Below are positions 18,154-27,150 of a stretch of DNA of 32,786 nucleotides, one piece after another (position 1 is the first letter of the stretch; the number at the start of each line of letters is the position of its first letter). The notes beneath the pieces are model-generated. The model ran no database searches. It saw only the letters and a program-made list of their open reading frames with translations, and was not told the DNA's origin. The position numbers and the translations under genes were made by a program. Origin of the DNA: Methanobrevibacter thaueri (GTDB lineage: Archaea > Methanobacteriota > Methanobacteria > Methanobacteriales > Methanobacteriaceae); the NCBI GenBank assembly GCA_015062925.1, contig SUTL01000016.1, forward strand, positions 1-32,786, given 5' to 3'.

Positions 18154-19011
18154 TTAAAAAGAAAAAGATTTAAACCAATCCAAAAATGAATCCAGGGAAA
18201 AACCATCCCCAGAACCAGTATCATTTAAAAAACCACTAACCTGATCCTTATAATAATTAACATCACCCTGAACATTCTGAACCTGCTCAATAGTATCAGC
18301 CAACTTATCAATATCATTATTAGTAATATTAATATTCTTATTATCAGCATAATTATTAATAATATTCACAATAGAATCATGATCAGACACATTACCACGG
18401 GAAACCTCATTCTTAACATCATCCACAAGACCGGACAAATCATCAGCATCAACACCAGAATTATTAATAATTTCAGCCTGAGTATAAATCTCATCATTAG
18501 CAGCTTCTTTAACATTATCCGGAATCTCAACATCAGTAGCCTGCTCATAAGCATTCATAATACCTGCAAGAGCAGACTCACCAGTAGCACTCACAGGACT
18601 AGTAACATAAACATGACCGGAAGTAATACCTGCAGATTTCAAGGAAGAAATATACATATCCCCGGTAATAGTAGTAATCTTAGACTTATCCACACTAACC
18701 TCCAAATTATCATTATCATTCAAATCAAGAAATGCAGAAGAATAAATCTGATTAGAAGAATAAGATTTACCAGTAATACCCTGAGAAACACTATTAACCA
18801 TATCTGCACTAATCACCTTACTTTCCACATCACCTAAATCAACATTAGTTTGAGATTTGAAAAAATCATCAACCATACTTTTATAATTGGAATTTCCATA
18901 AGTGGTTTCACCATAAGTTACAACAAGATTGGAATCAGCTGAAAAACCAACCGGCAACAACATACCTATAACAACAAAACCCAACAATAACATAATAAAC
19001 TTATTATCCAT
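18154..19011 (-). CDS. DUF1002 family secreted protein (paralogue A)
   Basis: About 285 residues. Residues 1-25 are a signal peptide ending near GFSA. The DUF1002 hallmarks follow: VVTYGETT after the signal, then ITTITGDMYISSLKSAGIT, GHVYVTSPV(S), ESALAGIMNAYEQAT, and a helical C-terminal third. DUF1002 proteins are secreted proteins of unknown function in Firmicutes and methanogens. ATG 19011 is chosen because GGAGG lies 8 nt upstream; the ATG five codons earlier overlaps that site. The downstream neighbour is the acidic-repeat protein and the upstream one, 19033, is its paralogue. Codon use matches the surroundings. Confidence 0.8.
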   Translation of the reverse strand: MDNKFIMLLLGFVVIGMLLPVGFSADSNLVVTYGETTYGNSNYKSMVDDFFKSQTNVDLGDVESKVISADMVNSVSQGITGKSYSSNQIYSSAFLDLNDNDNLEVSVDKSKITTITGDMYISSLKSAGITSGHVYVTSPVSATGESALAGIMNAYEQATDVEIPDNVKEAANDEIYTQAEIINNSGVDADDLSGLVDDVKNEVSRGNVSDHDSIVNIINNYADNKNINITNNDIDKLADTIEQVQNVQGDVNYYKDQVSGFLNDTGSGDGFSLDSFLDWFKSFSF

Positions 19012-19032
19012 AAATAAAACCTCCATTATTTT

Positions 19033-19866
19033 TTATTTAATTATATTATAAAGTGAATATTCATCAGTACAACTTCCACCACTGAAATCAGAAATACGAA
19101 GCATATAATCCCTCGCATCATCCCTCTGCATATTCACAAACAAAATCATACTCGAAAGACTATCAACATCCTCCTCACATAAAGATAAATTATCCTTAAC
19201 CACACTCTTATTAATCAACTTAACCATATCATCATAAGTACTTATATTATCCTTAACACTCTCCTTTTTAACATCCTCAACCAGATTAATCAAATCCTTC
19301 TTACTGACATTAGAATTTTCAAGAATACTGGCCTCAACACTAATTTCACAAATAACCGCTTTTTTAACATCCCCAGGAATTTCCATATTAGTAACAGACT
19401 CATAAGAATTTAAAATCTCACCTAAAGCCATCACACCATTATCCTCAACAGGACTGGTAATGAAAACCCTACCATAAGTTATACCGGCAGACCTTAGAGC
19501 AGACTCCAACATATCCGAATCAACCAAAGTAATTTTAGATGAATCAACAACAACATCCAAATCATTAGTATCATTCAAATCCGCAAGAACAGTAGTGAAA
19601 ATCTGATCACGAGAAAAACTCTCATTAAAAACACTACCATACAAATCATTAATATCCTTTGAAGTCATAATCTTATTATTAGTACTACCCACATCAACAT
19701 GAGCATGATTAACAAAATAATCATTAACAATACCTTTATACTCCAAATTAGACTGAGTAGTCTCACCATAAGTAATAACCACCGAATCAGAATCATTACC
19801 AAAACCAACCGGCAATACTAAACAAACAATGATTAAAAACATACATAATACATGAATTCTAGACAT
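19033..19866 (-). CDS. DUF1002 family secreted protein (paralogue B)
   Basis: 277 residues. Similar layout to the adjacent paralogue: signal peptide about 1-23, VVITYGETT, ITLVDSDMLESALRSAGIT, GRVFITSPV, MALGEILNSYES, and a helical C-terminal region. The two share an organisation but only moderate identity, so this is an old tandem duplication. GGAGGTGG lies upstream of the ATG with a longer spacing (about 10 nt). The gap to paralogue A is small (about 21 nt from its start), so they probably share a transcript. Function unknown; both are predicted outside the membrane. Confidence 0.78.
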   Translation of the reverse strand: MSRIHVLCMFLIIVCLVLPVGFGNDSDSVVITYGETTQSNLEYKGIVNDYFVNHAHVDVGSTNNKIMTSKDINDLYGSVFNESFSRDQIFTTVLADLNDTNDLDVVVDSSKITLVDSDMLESALRSAGITYGRVFITSPVEDNGVMALGEILNSYESVTNMEIPGDVKKAVICEISVEASILENSNVSKKDLINLVEDVKKESVKDNISTYDDMVKLINKSVVKDNLSLCEEDVDSLSSMILFVNMQRDDARDYMLRISDFSGGSCTDEYSLYNIIK

Positions 19867-20059
19867 TTAAAAAAATCCACCTCCAAAAAATATTTACTAA
19901 TCATAATTGGCCTAAGTAGTATTTAAATGTTATAGATTGAATTTAAAAAAAATGTAATATAATTTTATCCAAAATCCAAAATAAAAAAAAAAACAAACAA
20001 CAATTAAATAATAGCATATATGAATCCTATATAATTGTAAAACCAACAATTAAACCTAA

Positions 20060-20731
20060 TTAATTTATTAAACATTTTTTATGTAATATAGACTTATATA
20101 TGTCACGGTTAGTAATAAAGTTTAAGTTATTTTTATAATATTCACATTCCTCTTCAGATATTTTATTTTGAAAATTAAGAAGATTGATTTGATCAACAAT
20201 TTTTGAAAAAGTATCTAATGAAATCAAATAGGCTTCAACATTTTCTTCATCAAGATATTCAACCAAATCATTTAAATGAACTGGTTTTAAATGATAACAT
20301 GAAAATTTAATATCAATAAATTTTATGATGTTACTTATTGAAATTATATCATATGGATGATTTTTTTCATCCCCATTGTTATAGGTTACCTTACATTCTT
20401 TATACAATTTATTATATAAACAATATTTCCTGATTAAGTTATAAACTAAAACTTCTAAAAAAGCTCCTTTAATATTTCCAATATTTTTACTTAAAAATTC
20501 ATCAACATGTTCATCAAATTCATGAAAATCAAATAATGCACCTTTATTTATATAGTATTCTTTGATTTTAGAAAGATATTCCCTTCTATCTTCTTCATTT
20601 GTCATTTCAAAGATAGAAATAATATCATCTAACAAAATATCTTCTTGTGAGTTAAATGCTAAATTAGATAAATATATAACTGATTCCTCATCATGAAATG
20701 GATTAAATGTTTCTCTAAATTGAAATTTCAT
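20060..20731 (-). CDS. PD-(D/E)XK nuclease-like protein, third gene of a three-gene operon
   Basis: 223 residues. Residues 85-145 look like a PD-(D/E)XK core: helix with Glu93 (KGAFLEVLVYNLI), a loop, then P126-Y-D128 followed by a hydrophobic strand and D140-I-K142 (KFIDIKFS). The strand-turn-strand spacing of 11 residues between D128 and D140 is normal for restriction-type nucleases. The N-terminal 80 residues are acidic and helical; the C-terminus is Lys-rich. Its ATG shares a base with the stop of the SecB-like gene (TAATG), with GGGGA 7 nt upstream, so translation is coupled. A DNA- or RNA-cleaving role is inferred from motif layout. Confidence 0.55.
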   Translation of the reverse strand: MKFQFRETFNPFHDEESVIYLSNLAFNSQEDILLDDIISIFEMTNEEDRREYLSKIKEYYINKGALFDFHEFDEHVDEFLSKNIGNIKGAFLEVLVYNLIRKYCLYNKLYKECKVTYNNGDEKNHPYDIISISNIIKFIDIKFSCYHLKPVHLNDLVEYLDEENVEAYLISLDTFSKIVDQINLLNFQNKISEEECEYYKNNLNFITNRDIYKSILHKKCLIN

Positions 20732-21093
20732 TATATTTCCCCAATACTTTGTGAAAATGAAGGTAAATTCATATCTACTAAAAAAGATATGTGTTCGATT
20801 TGTTTATCAATGATAGCGATTATTTCAGAACACTTTAAAAATTCTTCTTTTGTAATCTCTTGTTCTAATTTTTCATTTGAAGTTATAATGATTCTACATT
20901 CCCACATAATATCAAAAGGCAAATCATTAGATTTTATATTATATGTTAAAAATATTTTTTGTTCATTATCTTTTGGAGGTAATATATCCAAATTTGAATT
21001 AATTTTTAATAAAATAAATCTATTTTCATTGCATTCTGGAAAATGTATTATGTTTAATTTTGTAGTTTTCACCTCAAAGTTTTTAATTTCCAT
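20731..21093 (-). CDS. SecB-like chaperone-fold protein, second gene of the operon
   Basis: About 120 residues. The strand pattern (FEVKTTKLNI, RFILLKINSNLDI, KIFLTYNIKS, WECRIIITSNE) is followed by ILF-like IAIIDKQIEHISFLVDMNLPSF. The same order of strands plus a last helix with P at its end is found in SecB and in SecB-like chaperones of toxin-antitoxin-chaperone systems. It lacks an N-terminal signal or membrane segment. AGGTGAT, overlapping the stop of the first gene, lies 4 nt before ATG 21093. The frame can be extended 3 codons to a GTG inside that site, which I reject. The chaperone assignment rests on pattern only; alternatives are an unrelated beta-sandwich. Confidence 0.45.
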   Translation of the reverse strand: MEIKNFEVKTTKLNIIHFPECNENRFILLKINSNLDILPPKDNEQKIFLTYNIKSNDLPFDIMWECRIIITSNEKLEQEITKEEFLKCSEIIAIIDKQIEHISFLVDMNLPSFSQSIGEI

Positions 21094-21098
21094 TATAA

Positions 21099-21623
21099 TC
21101 ACCTAATTTTTAATTCAACGCTTTTGTTTTTAACTAATGGTGTTCCATAATCTCGAGCTATGGTGATTGATTGGTCATTATTTAAAACAAATTTATTAGA
21201 TTCTAATTTATCTTTTAATTTATAAAATGAATTAATTAAAGATTCAAAATTATTTTCATTAAGTGCGTTTCTTAAGAAAACATCTGCAATGCCAATTATT
21301 GATTTTAAAATTTTCAAATCTTTTTCTGTGAATACTTTAATAGTGTTTTCAGTATTTTCTAAAAAGGAATCAAAAGAGTTCATATTATAAAAATCAAATT
21401 CACTTCGATCAACATTATTAACTTTAATTAATTGATTGAGAGTTGCATAATATTTTAAACGATACTGGTTAATAAATACTTTTGCTAGATTATTTATGAA
21501 ATTAGAACTTATTTTATTAAGTTGTTTTTCATAGTAACTTTTATGAGTTTCTAATAAATATGTGAAATTTTGATTATTTATAATAATCTCATCTACATCA
21601 ATAGTATCTATAAAATATTCCAT
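21099..21623 (-). CDS. unknown mostly helical protein, first gene of the operon
   Basis: 174 residues. Predominantly helical and Asn/Lys/Leu-rich, with an acidic start (MEYFIDTIDVDE), a central helical stretch LKILKSIIGIADVFLRNAL, and a short strand-rich tail ending in TPLVKNKSVELKIR. ATG 21623 has GGAGTG 7 nt upstream; the ATG five codons earlier overlaps that site. No catalytic motif is visible and I do not recognise the family. By position it could be the regulator, immunity factor or effector of the SecB-like/nuclease pair. An AT-rich promoter (AAATATATAATA) lies about 60 nt upstream. Confidence 0.6.
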   Translation of the reverse strand: MEYFIDTIDVDEIIINNQNFTYLLETHKSYYEKQLNKISSNFINNLAKVFINQYRLKYYATLNQLIKVNNVDRSEFDFYNMNSFDSFLENTENTIKVFTEKDLKILKSIIGIADVFLRNALNENNFESLINSFYKLKDKLESNKFVLNNDQSITIARDYGTPLVKNKSVELKIR

Positions 21624-21904
21624 GATATGACACTCCATAATATAGTTTAATTATTATATAAGTTATTAACTAGTATTATATATTTGTATCTATTTTTTGA
21701 AATCAATATTGTATTTTCCTCATAACTTCTTTTTTAAGTTTTTTAAACAATTTAATGATAAATCCAGGTTTAATTTTAATCATTTACTATGATTATAAAT
21801 CATTGACAAAAATTATTTGATTTGGATAATAATTAAGTTTTTGGATAACTACTCTATTTTGCATGTTATTTGAAAAATAGTGCCTGATTTTTTAGCAATA
21901 TTTT

Positions 21905-22154
21905 TTTATATTATTCAATATAAATCTCATTTAAAACAAAATTCGTTGCGGAAATTAACTCATAAAAAGCAAACCCCACAACTTTATCCTCAAATAATAT
22001 TTCTTTAAAAACATCACCAAAATCCTTAATTTAAAATAGATTCATAAATATACATATAATTTTCTTTTAAAATAGATTCAACATCCAAATAATCTGATAA
22101 ATCCTAGATAATTCCAGGATTATTATCATTTCTAATTATAAACTCCACTATCAT
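21905..22154 (-). pseudogene. broken GNAT acetyltransferase-like gene
   Basis: On the minus strand from ATG 22154 the frame reads MIVEFIIRNDNNPGII, then a TAG, then DLSDYLDVESILKENYMYIYESILN, a further stop, and after a one-base shift KDFGDVFKEILFEDKVVGFAFYELIS and NFVLNEIYIE before another stop. The segments join into the N-terminal half of a GNAT N-acetyltransferase. The strand with KVVGFAFY and the start of the NEIY-V motif are recognisable; the acetyl-CoA binding half is gone. One substitution and one frameshift plus a truncation mark it as dead. Confidence 0.65.
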
Positions 22155-22334
22155 GACCCTTCACCATATTATCAATTATATTAAATTCTTTTATTAATTA
22201 ATATAAATCAAATTTTCTCCCTAATAAATAATAATCTAAGAATAAAACCCTCCAAGAAAAATATTCATCCAGCACCTAATCAACCAAGAGTAAAAAATTC
22301 AAAATTAATAATAAACAAAATCATAATAATTCAA

Positions 22335-22820: not shown

Positions 22821-25800
22821 TTAATTTTTTTTACAGAAGATTCTATATGAACAGTTTTCACAGGTATCTGATTTTTTCGGGAAGTTTTTCCCATTTTTAA
22901 TTTTCCAAGCCACCTGGTTTAACATTTCCAATTCATTATTTATTTCTTTATCATTGATTTCTACAATATGCTGATAATCATTTAAAACAAAGTGAATTAT
23001 GGCTTTTTTTATTGTGTAATTTTTAAATTCAGGTAATTTTTTAATTGCTGCTGCATAAAGATGTGATTGTTTAATATATCCGTCAATATGCTTTTCATCA
23101 TATTCCGCATATTTATAATCTAGAATTATAATTTCATCCTCACCTGTTTTATATATTAAATCAATAGCACCATTTAACAGGTAATCTTTCATGTCTATTT
23201 CAAAGTCAAGTTCTGATGCTAAAACTTCCCTATTTATGGAGTATTTATTATAATAGTTAATTACATTGTTTTTAAACTCTTCGTATTCATCAGGATTATC
23301 ATTTATATCAAACATGGATTTGTAATTTTCATATGTTAAATCCGTTAATTCTTTTTTAGTTAAAATTATATTATCTATAAGTTTCAGGTTTGTTTTTTCC
23401 ATGATGTTATGGAATACTGTTCCCCTGTTTGCTGCTTTAGCACCTGGACGTGCAAAACCCATATTATAAGTTAAATCATATTTAAATGGACATGAACAGT
23501 ATTTAGTATATTTAGAATAATTTAACACTAATGTTTCTTCATCCTGATTAGTGTAATGTTCTTTTATTTCAACCTGACTTAAATCATCATAATTAAAGTT
23601 TTTAAGATGGTTTTTAATCCGGTTGATTTGTTCTGGAGGATTATTTATTGTTGAGAGAATTAATAAATCTGCAGCTCTTGTCATTGCCACATAAAGAACC
23701 CTGTCTTCTTCCTCAATATTCAATTCATTTTCCTCTTCAATTGAAATACTTTGATAAGTTAACTCACCATCACTATTTTCCTTTAAAACTGTTTTATATT
23801 CTAAACATTCATTTGGAGTGTAAAATGTGTCATTTGGGAAAATATAATCTTTTTCACGATTCGGGTCTTTAGGAATCATTGGGAATTTATCTTTTTGAAG
23901 AGAAGTGATAATTGTCACTGGAAATTCCAATCCTTTAGCTGCATGAATAGTCATTAACTGAACACCACTACCATCATCATGATATGAATCATAATTTTCA
24001 ATAGAAAATTTTAAAAAATATAATAAACCCCTAATATCTGTTTCAGATATGAATGACTGGTAATTGGATATTGTTTGTGTTAACAGTGCAAGATTTGCAA
24101 TTTCTTTATAATTATTTTCAACATCCACAAACCAATCACCTAATGATACCAGTTCATAAAAAACTTCTAGGATTGTTGGTGGTTCATCGGATTTAACTTT
24201 TGTGCGAATACCTTCGAGTTTTTTGAAAAATTCCTTATCATTTTCATTTTCAATTTCTTCCAAATCAACAACCGGCATACTGATTTTTTTAAACATTTCA
24301 ATTAATGTATCCTGAGTTTTATTCTTTTTAATTGTATGAGGTGCTTTTGCAACACCATCACCTTCTCTTTTCCTGAAATCAGGTTCAATCTCCATAATCC
24401 TATTATAAAAAGCCTCCTGTAAACTATTCAAATAATCCTTTGTTGATTTATCAAAGGATATTTTAAAGTAATCACTGCAAAAAGCATTGAAATTCAAATC
24501 ACTGGATTTATCAAGCTCATCTTTTGAAGGCACATAACCCATATTTGTTCTGCGTGAAACATACCATAACATACTAATCACAGATTTAACTTCAGCTTGT
24601 CTGGATAAATCAGATTGTCCCCTGAAAGAAAAAGTAATATCCTCATCACAATTGAATTTATTAATTAAATATTCAATTGTTTTATCCGAATGCTTACGAT
24701 ATAAAACTGCAACATCAGAATAATCCCGGATTAAATCATTATCCTTTAAAAAACAGATAATATCATATATTTTATCCGCTTCTTCTTTACTGTCCTTATT
24801 TTCAACTAAAAAATTAGGATTATTATAATCCTTACCGGCACTCACCATATGTTTTTGAGAAGTTTCTTTTCTTTGAGGAGAAATAAACGCTTCAGTTAAA
24901 TTAACAATACCCTCAGTAGAGCGATAATTAACATCCAAACTCATACAATCAGGATTATCCAACCGAATAAGTTCATCGAAAAAATCATTAAAAGAACTTC
25001 TGAAAGCATAAATATGCTGATCAACATCACCAACAGCAGTGAAATAATCACAATCCCTTCTTAAAACCTCAAAAATCCTAAACTGCAACGGATCAGTATC
25101 CTGAAACTCATCAACAAAAACAGTTTTAAACCTAATACTAGAATCACACTCCAATTCCCTTAAAGCCTTCAACTGCAAAGTATCATAATCAACATAATTA
25201 AACTCATCCAACAACCTCAAATACTTAGGATAAGCCTTTGCAACCTGCAAATACCTTGCATTATACCATGAATTAGAAAAAACATCCTCCTCATCATACA
25301 ATGAATCCTCTTTTTTAAGATCCTTTTTAATAGGCTTATCATGATCATCAATACGTTTTTTAGAAAAATAATCCATAGACCCAACAAAATCAATATACTC
25401 CTTAGAAATAACCCTCGAACCACTAATCCTTTTAATTAAATCCTCTGAATTAACATTAAAACAAGCATACTCGCCAAATTTATTTAAAACACTAGGTAAC
25501 TGATAGTCAAAAACACAAGCCTCATCAACAAAACCAAGTTCCTTTTTATACTTCTGAATAAACAATGACTTCTTCTCAGAAGTATCATCATCCAACAAAG
25601 TCACAGCCTGATTTTTAGATTTAAGATACTCCAAACAAAAAGAATGAATAGTGGAAATCTGCATTTTCAAAACAACACTATTAGAAAGCTTCTCCCTTAA
25701 CTTAGTTTTCAAATTATCAGCAGCTTTAGTTGTAAAAGTAATAACAAGAAAAGACTCAGGATCAACACCCCTATTAATCAACTCCACAATCCTAGAAACA

Positions 25801-25895
25801 ATCACAGTCGTTTTACCAGAACCAGGACCTGCCTCAACTAACAAACTGCCTTTTCCAAAATTAATAACTTGTCTTTGCTCATCATTAAAATCCAT
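22821..25895 (-). CDS. UvrD-family helicase fused to a RecB/AddB-like Fe-S nuclease
   Basis: 1024 residues. SF1A helicase motifs: Walker A AGPGSGKTT (22-30), Walker B VDEFQD (about 261-266), GDVDQHIYAF, the nucleotide-binding MTIHAAKGLEFP and motif VI YVAMTRA. The C-terminal 220 residues are a PD-(D/E)XK nuclease (GAIDLIYK, then IIILDYKYAEY with the D-x-K). Four cysteines, one in SCPF near 800 and CENC plus a last Cys at the end (about 1012-1021), match the Fe-S cluster of AddB-type nucleases. It probably unwinds and resects DNA ends in repair or acts against foreign DNA. ATG 25895 (GGGA 5 nt upstream) is preferred to the ATG at 25940, which lies in poorly conserved leader. Confidence 0.85.
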   Translation of the reverse strand: MDFNDEQRQVINFGKGSLLVEAGPGSGKTTVIVSRIVELINRGVDPESFLVITFTTKAADNLKTKLREKLSNSVVLKMQISTIHSFCLEYLKSKNQAVTLLDDDTSEKKSLFIQKYKKELGFVDEACVFDYQLPSVLNKFGEYACFNVNSEDLIKRISGSRVISKEYIDFVGSMDYFSKKRIDDHDKPIKKDLKKEDSLYDEEDVFSNSWYNARYLQVAKAYPKYLRLLDEFNYVDYDTLQLKALRELECDSSIRFKTVFVDEFQDTDPLQFRIFEVLRRDCDYFTAVGDVDQHIYAFRSSFNDFFDELIRLDNPDCMSLDVNYRSTEGIVNLTEAFISPQRKETSQKHMVSAGKDYNNPNFLVENKDSKEEADKIYDIICFLKDNDLIRDYSDVAVLYRKHSDKTIEYLINKFNCDEDITFSFRGQSDLSRQAEVKSVISMLWYVSRRTNMGYVPSKDELDKSSDLNFNAFCSDYFKISFDKSTKDYLNSLQEAFYNRIMEIEPDFRKREGDGVAKAPHTIKKNKTQDTLIEMFKKISMPVVDLEEIENENDKEFFKKLEGIRTKVKSDEPPTILEVFYELVSLGDWFVDVENNYKEIANLALLTQTISNYQSFISETDIRGLLYFLKFSIENYDSYHDDGSGVQLMTIHAAKGLEFPVTIITSLQKDKFPMIPKDPNREKDYIFPNDTFYTPNECLEYKTVLKENSDGELTYQSISIEEENELNIEEEDRVLYVAMTRAADLLILSTINNPPEQINRIKNHLKNFNYDDLSQVEIKEHYTNQDEETLVLNYSKYTKYCSCPFKYDLTYNMGFARPGAKAANRGTVFHNIMEKTNLKLIDNIILTKKELTDLTYENYKSMFDINDNPDEYEEFKNNVINYYNKYSINREVLASELDFEIDMKDYLLNGAIDLIYKTGEDEIIILDYKYAEYDEKHIDGYIKQSHLYAAAIKKLPEFKNYTIKKAIIHFVLNDYQHIVEINDKEINNELEMLNQVAWKIKNGKNFPKKSDTCENCSYRIFCKKN

Positions 25896-26415
25896 AAAAA
25901 TCCCTTTAGTATTGTCATTATTATAACAATATATTAACATGATTATTTAATTATTGTGGACATGCATTTATCAAAATATACATATTTGCTTAATATAAAA
26001 AACTAAATAGAAAAATTTAACAAATTTCCCTGTTCATCCTGTGTTCAAATCATGACCCTAATTTATTTACAAATGTTTTATATAGGATATTAATATAATA
26101 ATATAAACAAGAGGTTTAAACCTCCACAATTAGAAGATAATTCTAATTGGCCGAAATTCAATGCGGTAAAAATCAATATCATTGTGTTAAATTGTAGAAT
26201 TCCATTTTCTACAATTGATATTGATTATAAATCTAGTTTTATACATATTTTTCTTAATTATCCAAAATATTTCATCTGCCGAAAGCATCACTACCTAAAT
26301 TAGTTTACAAGCTTAGATTTTTTTAATAATTTACTATTTTCAACATGAACCTATATTTTCAATACCCCCAATGTATTACTTCTTTGAAATTATTTTTTTT
26401 TTGATTCTATAATAA
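25896..26415. other. intergenic stretch of 520 bp holding a candidate RNA gene
   Basis: Apart from the helicase leader (the frame remains open to 25940 but without homology) and the structured element at 26076-26235, the sequence is AT-rich with no coding frame. The last 180 bases, 26236-26415, show nothing beyond T-rich tracts and the end of the 26416 gene. Confidence 0.5.
26076..26235 (+). ncRNA. candidate promoter-driven structured non-coding RNA
   Basis: TTTTATATA at 26076-26084 is an excellent archaeal TATA box; a start about 25 nt later would be near 26105. The predicted transcript then carries in order a perfect 14-bp palindrome (GAGGTTTAAACCTC, 26111-26124), an 8-bp hairpin (AATTAGAA 26128-26135, TTCTAATT 26141-26148, 5-nt loop), a short CCG/CGG pair (26151, 26164), and a long two-part stem: AATCAATATC (26171-26180) with GATATTGATT (26217-26226) enclosing AATTGTAGAA (26190-26199) with TTCTACAATT (26207-26216). 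T-rich DNA follows at 26236-26260. No open frame is present. Family unknown; the strand is inferred from the TATA box. Confidence 0.55.
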
Positions 26416-27150
26416 TTAATATCTTGGATTGTGAACCAAATATTCACTATATTCCCAATCTATCCTATCATTATTCTTATATAATCTCCTTATTTCATCT
26501 CTTAGTTCCATTAAGGCAAATCCAAATAAGTTTTCATCTCCACCCCATTCATCATCAGAGATATAAACTAATGATTTATCCCCAGTATCTAAAAGAGTTT
26601 GTTTTAACTTATCATCAGCCATTATTTTATAATATGCTCCATTTAAACAGGCAGAGTATTTATAATGATTCCATAATTCCTGCTGACTTTCTGTGAGCTC
26701 GAAATCATCATCCAAATTAGTAAAATCAAACTCATCATGAGGCTTGTTAAATAAATCATATTTTGCACATAGAATATAATTTCTAATGCTTGAAAAATGC
26801 ATTGCATTTAATCTAAACTCTTTATCAACTTGATTTAAAGTAATAAAATCATTTACAACAATTTTATCCTCACCTAATATGGAATATTTTTGAATTCCAT
26901 CCATTCTCCAGAATCTTGCAAAAAATGAATATTTCTCTAGTTTATCAGCACCATTACGACCTTCCTCCAAATAATACAACCAATTAAGAGGTTTTTGGAA
27001 TAATTTATCAAATTCTTCAGTTTCAAAAGGTATGCTCCTCCAATATGACTCACCATAACCCATTCTCCACCCTATAGTTGTACAAGATAATTCAGGATAC
27101 ATTAACCATCTTGGAGCTGCAAATTTCCCCACATCCAAATAAGATTTCAT
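26416..27150 (-). CDS. NADAR-like glycosidase domain protein
   Basis: 244 residues. The C-terminal two thirds look like a diverged NADAR (YbiA/DUF1768) domain: SFFARFW (around 75), SSIRNYILCAKYDLFN, then LLDTGDKSLVYIS-DDEWGGDENLFGFALMELRDEIR, matching the NADAR elements where the body of the domain usually has EQYMMAQKA, LLxTG and D-x-x-WG-x-G-NxLG-x-LMxxR. The first 70 residues (GWRMGYGESYW and surroundings) form an extra N-terminal region. NADAR enzymes hydrolyse N-glycosidic bonds in riboflavin intermediates or remove ADP-ribose from guanine in DarT-NADAR systems. GAGGGGG lies 8 nt before the ATG. The gene overlaps the upstream gene by 59 nt in another frame. Confidence 0.6.
   Translation of the reverse strand: MKSYLDVGKFAAPRWLMYPELSCTTIGWRMGYGESYWRSIPFETEEFDKLFQKPLNWLYYLEEGRNGADKLEKYSFFARFWRMDGIQKYSILGEDKIVVNDFITLNQVDKEFRLNAMHFSSIRNYILCAKYDLFNKPHDEFDFTNLDDDFELTESQQELWNHYKYSACLNGAYYKIMADDKLKQTLLDTGDKSLVYISDDEWGGDENLFGFALMELRDEIRRLYKNNDRIDWEYSEYLVHNPRY

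Follow-up and report, generated by a model that had tools for sequence, protein, structure and literature searches.

A three-gene operon of Methanobrevibacter thaueri that encodes a SecB-like protein and a predicted PD-(D/E)XK nuclease resembles toxin-antitoxin-chaperone systems

Results

The A-B-C operon and its surroundings

The window analyzed here is a stretch of 32,786 nucleotides of Methanobrevibacter thaueri DNA (contig SUTL01000016.1). Three consecutive open reading frames on its minus strand, designated A, B, and C, lie with overlapping ends within 21638-20060 (Table 1). A sequence-only reading of this DNA had described three coupled frames on one strand, and both junctions, AGGTGAT between A and B and TAATG between B and C, were found as described; in the latter, the TAA stop of B overlaps the ATG of C. 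The frame of A opens at 21638, and GTG 21102 is an alternative start for B. The starts at 21623 for A and at ATG 21093 for B are favored because they agree with the starts of the relatives and with the GGAGTG and AGGTGAT motifs.

Table 1. Coordinates of the A-B-C module and its features in the window.
Feature	Position	Strand	Remark
Gene A, 174 aa (179 if from 21638)	21099..21623	-	proposed antitoxin: shared core and C-terminal tail
Tail of A, 32 residues past the shared core	21102..21197	-	proposed ChAD-like (chaperone-addiction) extension
Gene B, 120 aa (123 from GTG 21102)	20731..21093	-	SecB fold; proposed dedicated chaperone of A
Gene C, 223 aa	20060..20731	-	PD-(D/E)XK nuclease; proposed toxin
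E93 codon of C	20453..20455	-	kept in 16/16
D128 codon of C	20348..20350	-	kept in 16/16; aligned with Can2 D278
D140-I141-K142 codons of C	20306..20314	-	D/E at 140 and K at 142 in 16/16; aligned with Can2 Glu-Cys-Lys
GGAGTG, likely ribosome-binding site of A	21631..21636	-	read from sequence
AGGTGAT, contains TGA stop of A, likely ribosome-binding site of B	21098..21104	-	read from sequence

The GC content is 20-22% across the module (20001-22000), which is low even for this AT-rich window; the segment 6001-7000 is equally low. For the A, B, and C proteins of the window, searches of Pfam, PADLOC, NCBIfam, and PHROGs gave nothing convincing; the matches returned by PHROGs, NCBIfam, and a PADLOC scan of relatives were weak and scattered. 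The operon is not a chance arrangement of frames, because its gene order is repeated at six intact loci, with protein identities of 17-25% at the lowest, and because the dN/dS values among the three closest loci are 0.13-0.37.

On one side, the module is flanked by two adjacent DUF1002 genes with apparently exported products (18154-19866); a DUF1002-like ORF also adjoins the module at L045 (L numbers denote loci, G numbers genomes). The other side holds a gene for a small cysteine-rich protein, a gene for a UvrD helicase of 1039 aa that has a PDDEXK_1 domain at its C-terminus, in an AddA-like layout (22821-25940; its PADLOC matches are the GajB and RTasHel helicases), and, at a distance of about 5 kb, a gene with a NADAR domain (26416-27150). 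In L068 (8349-10676), too, a NADAR protein is encoded near the module, about 2 kb away, which is possibly a coincidence. The dead gene reported earlier next to the operon is present: positions 21917-22197 are the remnant of a gene start, with 74-77% DNA identity to three relatives, and the counterpart in two listed relatives is the start of an intact ORF of 702-704 aa.

Protein B has a SecB fold

The AlphaFold2 model of B, calculated from 6 sequences (pLDDT 85.2, pTM 0.79), consists of four strands followed by helices. In a Foldseek search, the first match was M. tuberculosis Rv1957 with the ChAD peptide (5mtw_B, E 4.7e-4), followed by the SecB proteins of H. influenzae and E. coli; only two rows of this list were at E <= 0.001. 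VIA-align returned Z scores of 9.3 to 5mtw_D (2.9 A over 118 residues), 9.3 to 1qyn_A, 9.1 to 1fx3_D, and 8.9 to 1ozb_G. The next matches were two streptococcal proteins without known function (Z 7.4) and a further SecB entry (7.2), and all others scored 4.7 or less. The identity to the aligned SecB structures is 3-9% in the VIA-align rows. As judged from the model and both structure comparisons, which agree with the SecB-like assignment made from the sequence, B has a SecB fold, and its nearest solved structures are Rv1957, the chaperone of a toxin-antitoxin-chaperone (TAC) system, and SecB.

The Pfam SecB model PF02556 did not match B at E 1, and it was above its cut-off in none of 150 genomes; of the control genomes, 4 of 14 gave a match above the cut-off in the same search. 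Among PDB sequences, the single B protein had no match at E 10, and the B profile had unrelated weak matches only. A SecB-like protein from an archaeon, Mj0357, was already known according to the accessible text of PMC4361572.

Protein C resembles the effector half of Card1 and Can2

The model of C, calculated from 16 sequences (pLDDT 89.6, pTM 0.88), contains a PD-(D/E)XK core, and the residues E93, D128, D140, and K142 are where the sequence-only reading had placed them. In all 16 aligned sequences, position 93 is E, 128 is D, and 142 is K; position 140 is D in 4 and E in 12. Can2, Cdn1, and Card1 were at the top of the Foldseek list. VIA-align ranked Cdn1 first (Z 12.0, 4.5 A over 189 residues, model residues 1-223 against chain residues 153-398), followed by Can2 (10.9, chain residues 157-435), Card1 (9.8), Can1 (9.4), and the restriction enzyme AgeI (8.6). 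Can2 was also the first match of the C profile among PDB sequences, at a non-significant E of 0.035, with D128 aligned to D278 and positions 140-142 to Glu-Cys-Lys. A match to Card1_endonuc was found only for the relative of C at L005 (E 0.063), and likeness of sequence alone is not significant. In the available portion of PMC7969007, Can2 is described as breaking down supercoiled DNA and RNA, and the E276A/D278A double mutant as inactive.

The whole length of C can be aligned to the C-terminal half of Card1, Can2, and Cdn1, and C has the positions G-x-F/W-x-E, D, and E-C-K in common with Can2. In contrast to these proteins, the 223-aa C is too short to include a CARF domain, which senses cyclic oligoadenylate, and it is linked to A and sometimes to B. 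Since C aligns to the part of Can2, Cdn1, and Card1 that follows the CARF domain, it corresponds to their effector half without the CARF sensor; lacking that domain, it is not itself a member of the Card1/Can2 group.

Distribution of the two-gene and three-gene forms

A first search for B covered 138 genomes from the family, of which nine matched at E 0.01, several of them weakly. Profiles of A, B, and C were then searched in 151 genomes of the phylum. Strong matches to B were found at eight places in 7 of the 151 genomes, and all eight lie between an A and a C gene. Matches in G104 and G048 (E 0.004-0.006, with stops) were left out of this count. Six of the three-gene operons are intact (the window, L002, L003, L004, L005, and L010), and L028 and L029 are decayed.

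That B is an ordinary export-type SecB lying by chance between unrelated genes is hardly credible: B does have the SecB fold, but its linkage to A and C, without exception among the strong matches, already disfavors this explanation, and archaea lack SecA, the partner of SecB in export, according to the part of PMC4361572 that is accessible.

C occurs at 23 places in 15 of the 151 genomes. The A profile returned 33 rows in 21 genomes, from which 29 places with E 2e-9 or better were counted; four weak rows (the places of L106, L107, L115, and G123:C15) were excluded. All but one of the C places (22/23) adjoin an A gene, the remaining one, L036, being an 84-residue fragment. Conversely, 22 of the 29 A places have a C gene, one has a remnant of C (L112), and six are without C (L099, L101, L103, L104, L105, and L114), where only about 0.6 kb downstream is visible at L103 and L114, and the A genes of L104 and L114 are themselves broken. 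In Methanosphaera, each of the 13 C places, four of them in a single genome (G115), has an adjoining A gene and no B at E 1e-3, which constitutes a two-gene A-C form.

None of the three findings that the sequence-only reading had named as refuting it was made: B has the SecB fold, C has the PD-(D/E)XK core, and A, B, and C are linked outside the window as well, within one archaeal family in searches of one archaeal phylum. In 392 genomes sampled from the phylum to which a metagenome-assembled genome (MAG) named Bacillota belongs, the B profile had one match (E 7e-4), which was rejected because of its 7 stops. The locus L056, one of seven genome-contig loci, is from this Bacillota MAG (SIG197) and is a probable contamination, because its A, C, and neighboring ORFs are the same, as they read, as in Methanosphaera stadtmanae SIG25, and its A and C are as in Methanosphaera L035. 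Viral contigs were searched with B, C, the profiles A2 and A6, and three further C proteins (from L005, L010, and L041); the sole match, L118, was rejected for having no support from the A, B, or C profiles at 1e-3. There was no match in phages, searched with C and B, or in plasmids, searched with C and the Methanosphaera C of L041. Among the literature matches listed, mostly papers available without subscription and therefore a weak negative, we recognized no description of a TAC module whose toxin is a PD-(D/E)XK nuclease, or of this archaeal operon.

A C-terminal tail of A accompanies B

The A protein, described as unknown and helical in the sequence-only reading, could not be matched to any known family of antitoxins, and it had no match to the HigA, HicB, or MqsA models in Pfam. 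Kinship to Cas10 or to colicin immunity proteins was considered and rejected, the matches (E 0.006 and 0.17) being far below the cut-offs. Among PDB sequences, the A profile matched best to a designed protein of helical repeats (33 positions, E 3.5e-6), which we take to reflect composition.

Tail length was measured as the number of residues beyond the shared core of A, as defined by an HMM. At the eight loci with B, the tails are 32, 32, 30, 39, 46, 33, 45, and 48 residues long, that is, 30-48 residues in all eight. At the 20 loci of the tree without B, the tail has 1-12 residues in 18, and the Methanosphaera A proteins end near the last conserved helix. The two exceptions are L114 (28 residues), where the gene is broken and B is absent, and L103 (56 residues), where no B is found in the 613 bases downstream to the end of the contig. 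The tail of L104 was scored as 1 residue, but its A gene is frameshifted, and the C-terminal piece gives 5. The tree left out L058, L060, L062, and L037 as duplicates of other rows, L031, whose A reads as that of L032, and L106, which is weak; L107 had no match at 1e-3.

Within the clade of A sequences that contains the B-bearing loci, L098, L101, L104, and L105 are without both B and the tail. The most telling of these is L098, the only one of the four with a C gene: B and the tail are gone, and the start of C lies 80 bases past A, but C is cut by the end of the contig. At L101 and L104, a single deletion could have removed the tail, B, and C together, because C is gone there too. The tree requires five changes of the B label. 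The three independent pairs on well-supported branches change in the same direction 2.7 times on average and never in the opposite direction, which is too few for a test. Among the window, L002, and L003, the identity of the tails is 45-58% compared to 79-85% for the core; the tail evolves faster.

The antitoxins of TAC systems are described, in the available text of PMC5105189, as carrying C-terminal extensions of variable length and composition that are absent in two-component homologs and that impose the requirement for the chaperone. At the level of sequence, the association between tail and B is the signature of such a ChAD extension.

Occurrence and decay of A and C

Broken C genes are found beside unbroken A genes at L029, L031, L042, and L045. 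At L028 the situation is reversed: A and B are broken, and C is open with all four active-site residues. This would be unexpected for a strong toxin and counts against C being one at this locus, unless C is silent or the MAG contains an error. The dN/dS values among the window, L002, and L003 are 0.17-0.21 for A, 0.13-0.37 for B, and 0.19-0.23 for C; relative to L004 they are 0.33-0.57, with synonymous sites near saturation.

These patterns bear on the possibility that A and C make up a defense complex of the sensor or restriction type, in which A would recruit or activate the nuclease, and B would fold or assemble A or the A-C complex. The linkage of A and C both with and without B would suit such a complex, as would the open C beside broken A and B at L028, and the role of A as an inhibitor is itself inferential. 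However, the occurrence of A without C at six of 29 places and beside a broken C at four loci is easier to reconcile with an inhibitor than with an activator, and the association of tail and B copies the pattern known from TAC systems. We therefore regard the defense complex as unlikely.

Proviruses and other neighborhoods

In the provirus of L066, the module comes after the genes for terminase, portal, and Mu-F head proteins, and at L064 it lies beside a prohead protease gene. The two loci have an XkdF-like protease in common (90.5% protein identity), and their flanking DNA is 84-88% identical. Between the common flanks, L064 holds the three-gene module; L066 holds an M78-peptidase protein, which has a PADLOC match to RmrA (E 3.6e-23), and a DUF4411 protein, for which PADLOC found no RmrT match. 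L066 has its own distant module (22-34% identity in the aligned parts), which abuts the left flank. The comparison looks like an exchange of cassettes at one position of a provirus. The interval (L064 1663-5654, L066 10124-14179) is a candidate cargo hotspot adjoining the XkdF-like protease.

Integrase-like genes are found near the modules of L064 and L067, both under the Pfam cut-offs, and L067 also has a PIN gene nearby; a DDE transposase gene adjoins the module of L063. The sequence-only reading had raised the question of neighboring defense genes. These were found at L077 (Cas5b, Cas7b, and a type IIG restriction enzyme) and at L066 (the RmrA-like protein), but several other copies lie among housekeeping or adhesin-like genes, and for this reason the association with defense is anecdotal.

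The setting in a provirus head-gene cluster at L066 and beside a prohead protease at L064 could also indicate that the cassette serves the virus, with C degrading the DNA of the host or of rival viruses for the provirus that carries it, and A and B silencing or folding C. The inspected places among the 13 Methanosphaera C places argue against this explanation, in that their surroundings are housekeeping, adhesin-like, cas, or restriction genes with no evident virus setting. We consider a virus-serving role improbable as the main explanation, although it overlaps with the TAC reading, because defense borne by a provirus also benefits the virus.

Discussion

Comparison to known TAC systems

Like HigBA-SecB of M. 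tuberculosis (Rv1955-Rv1957), A-B-C is a three-gene operon that includes a SecB-like protein, the first Foldseek match of which is the complex of Rv1957 with ChAD, and its putative antitoxin A is extended at the C-terminus by a variable stretch that the two-gene homologs do not have. Two features of TAC systems, the SecB-like gene in the same operon and, as a sequence feature, the antitoxin extension absent from two-component homologs, are therefore present. The proposed toxin differs: a predicted PD-(D/E)XK nuclease here, the mRNase HigB there. The host is an archaeon, the order is A, chaperone, nuclease, and A has no HigA, HicB, or MqsA match. The earlier judgment that this layout departs from the classical HigBA-SecB system is borne out by the toxin, by the lack of a HigA match, and by the gene order. 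The two-gene form, the link between tail and B, the kinship of C to Card1 and Can2, and the provirus slot had gone unnoticed in that reading.

That the toxin-antitoxin pair of a TAC system comes from the HigBA, HicAB, or MqsRA families is presented as general, though not obligatory, in the accessible part of PMC5105189. A and C had no Pfam match to these families, and CmdTAC is a precedent for other pairs. SecB genes are described in the available text of PMC4257090 as having joined several unrelated toxin-antitoxin families, and a further such pairing is plausible for that reason. CmdTAC of E. coli, as far as the accessible text of PMC11618068 goes, likewise combines a SecB-like chaperone, an antitoxin of a new family, and an effector in one operon; its effector is an mRNA ADP-ribosyltransferase, whereas that of A-B-C is a predicted nuclease. 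In phage defense, the T4 capsid protein takes the chaperone of CmdTAC (same source), and the lambda major tail protein takes that of HigBAC (PMC11980606, in the part available); the diversion by the capsid protein serves as our model for A-B-C. CmdTAC and MqsRAC are reported to be protective in E. coli in the portion of PMC9519451 at hand.

A proposed mechanism

Taken together, A-B-C is probably a conflict module of the TAC type that combines an antitoxin from a new family with a toxin resembling Card1/Can2, and we infer its mode of action as follows. C would be a nuclease toxin, equivalent to the effector half of CRISPR nucleases of the Card1/Can2 type but lacking their cyclic-nucleotide sensor, and A, which would represent a new antitoxin family, would bind and block it. 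In the three-gene form, the variable tail would destabilize A unless the SecB-like B binds to it; the two-gene form has neither tail nor chaperone. If B were drawn off, for example by newly made structural proteins of a virus, A would be lost, and C would be released to cut nucleic acid, so that the infection would be stopped.

More tentatively, and with less confidence than we place in the assignment to the TAC type, the module may be an archaeal immunity system in which a sensor-free nuclease half of the Card1/Can2 kind is paired with a chaperone-dependent antitoxin. Diversion of the SecB-like chaperone by virus structural proteins would then take the place of second-messenger signaling, the module would be exchangeable cargo of methanogen proviruses, and its chaperone-free and chaperone-addicted forms would differ by the tail and the chaperone.

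If this is true, chaperone-addicted toxin systems extend to the archaea, gain an antitoxin family and a class of toxin that are both new to them, and are tied to type III CRISPR effectors. The finding would also point to exchangeable conflict cargo in the viruses of methanogens. With the two-gene form, the three-gene form, and A alone as a natural series, the question of how chaperone addiction arose becomes open to direct testing.
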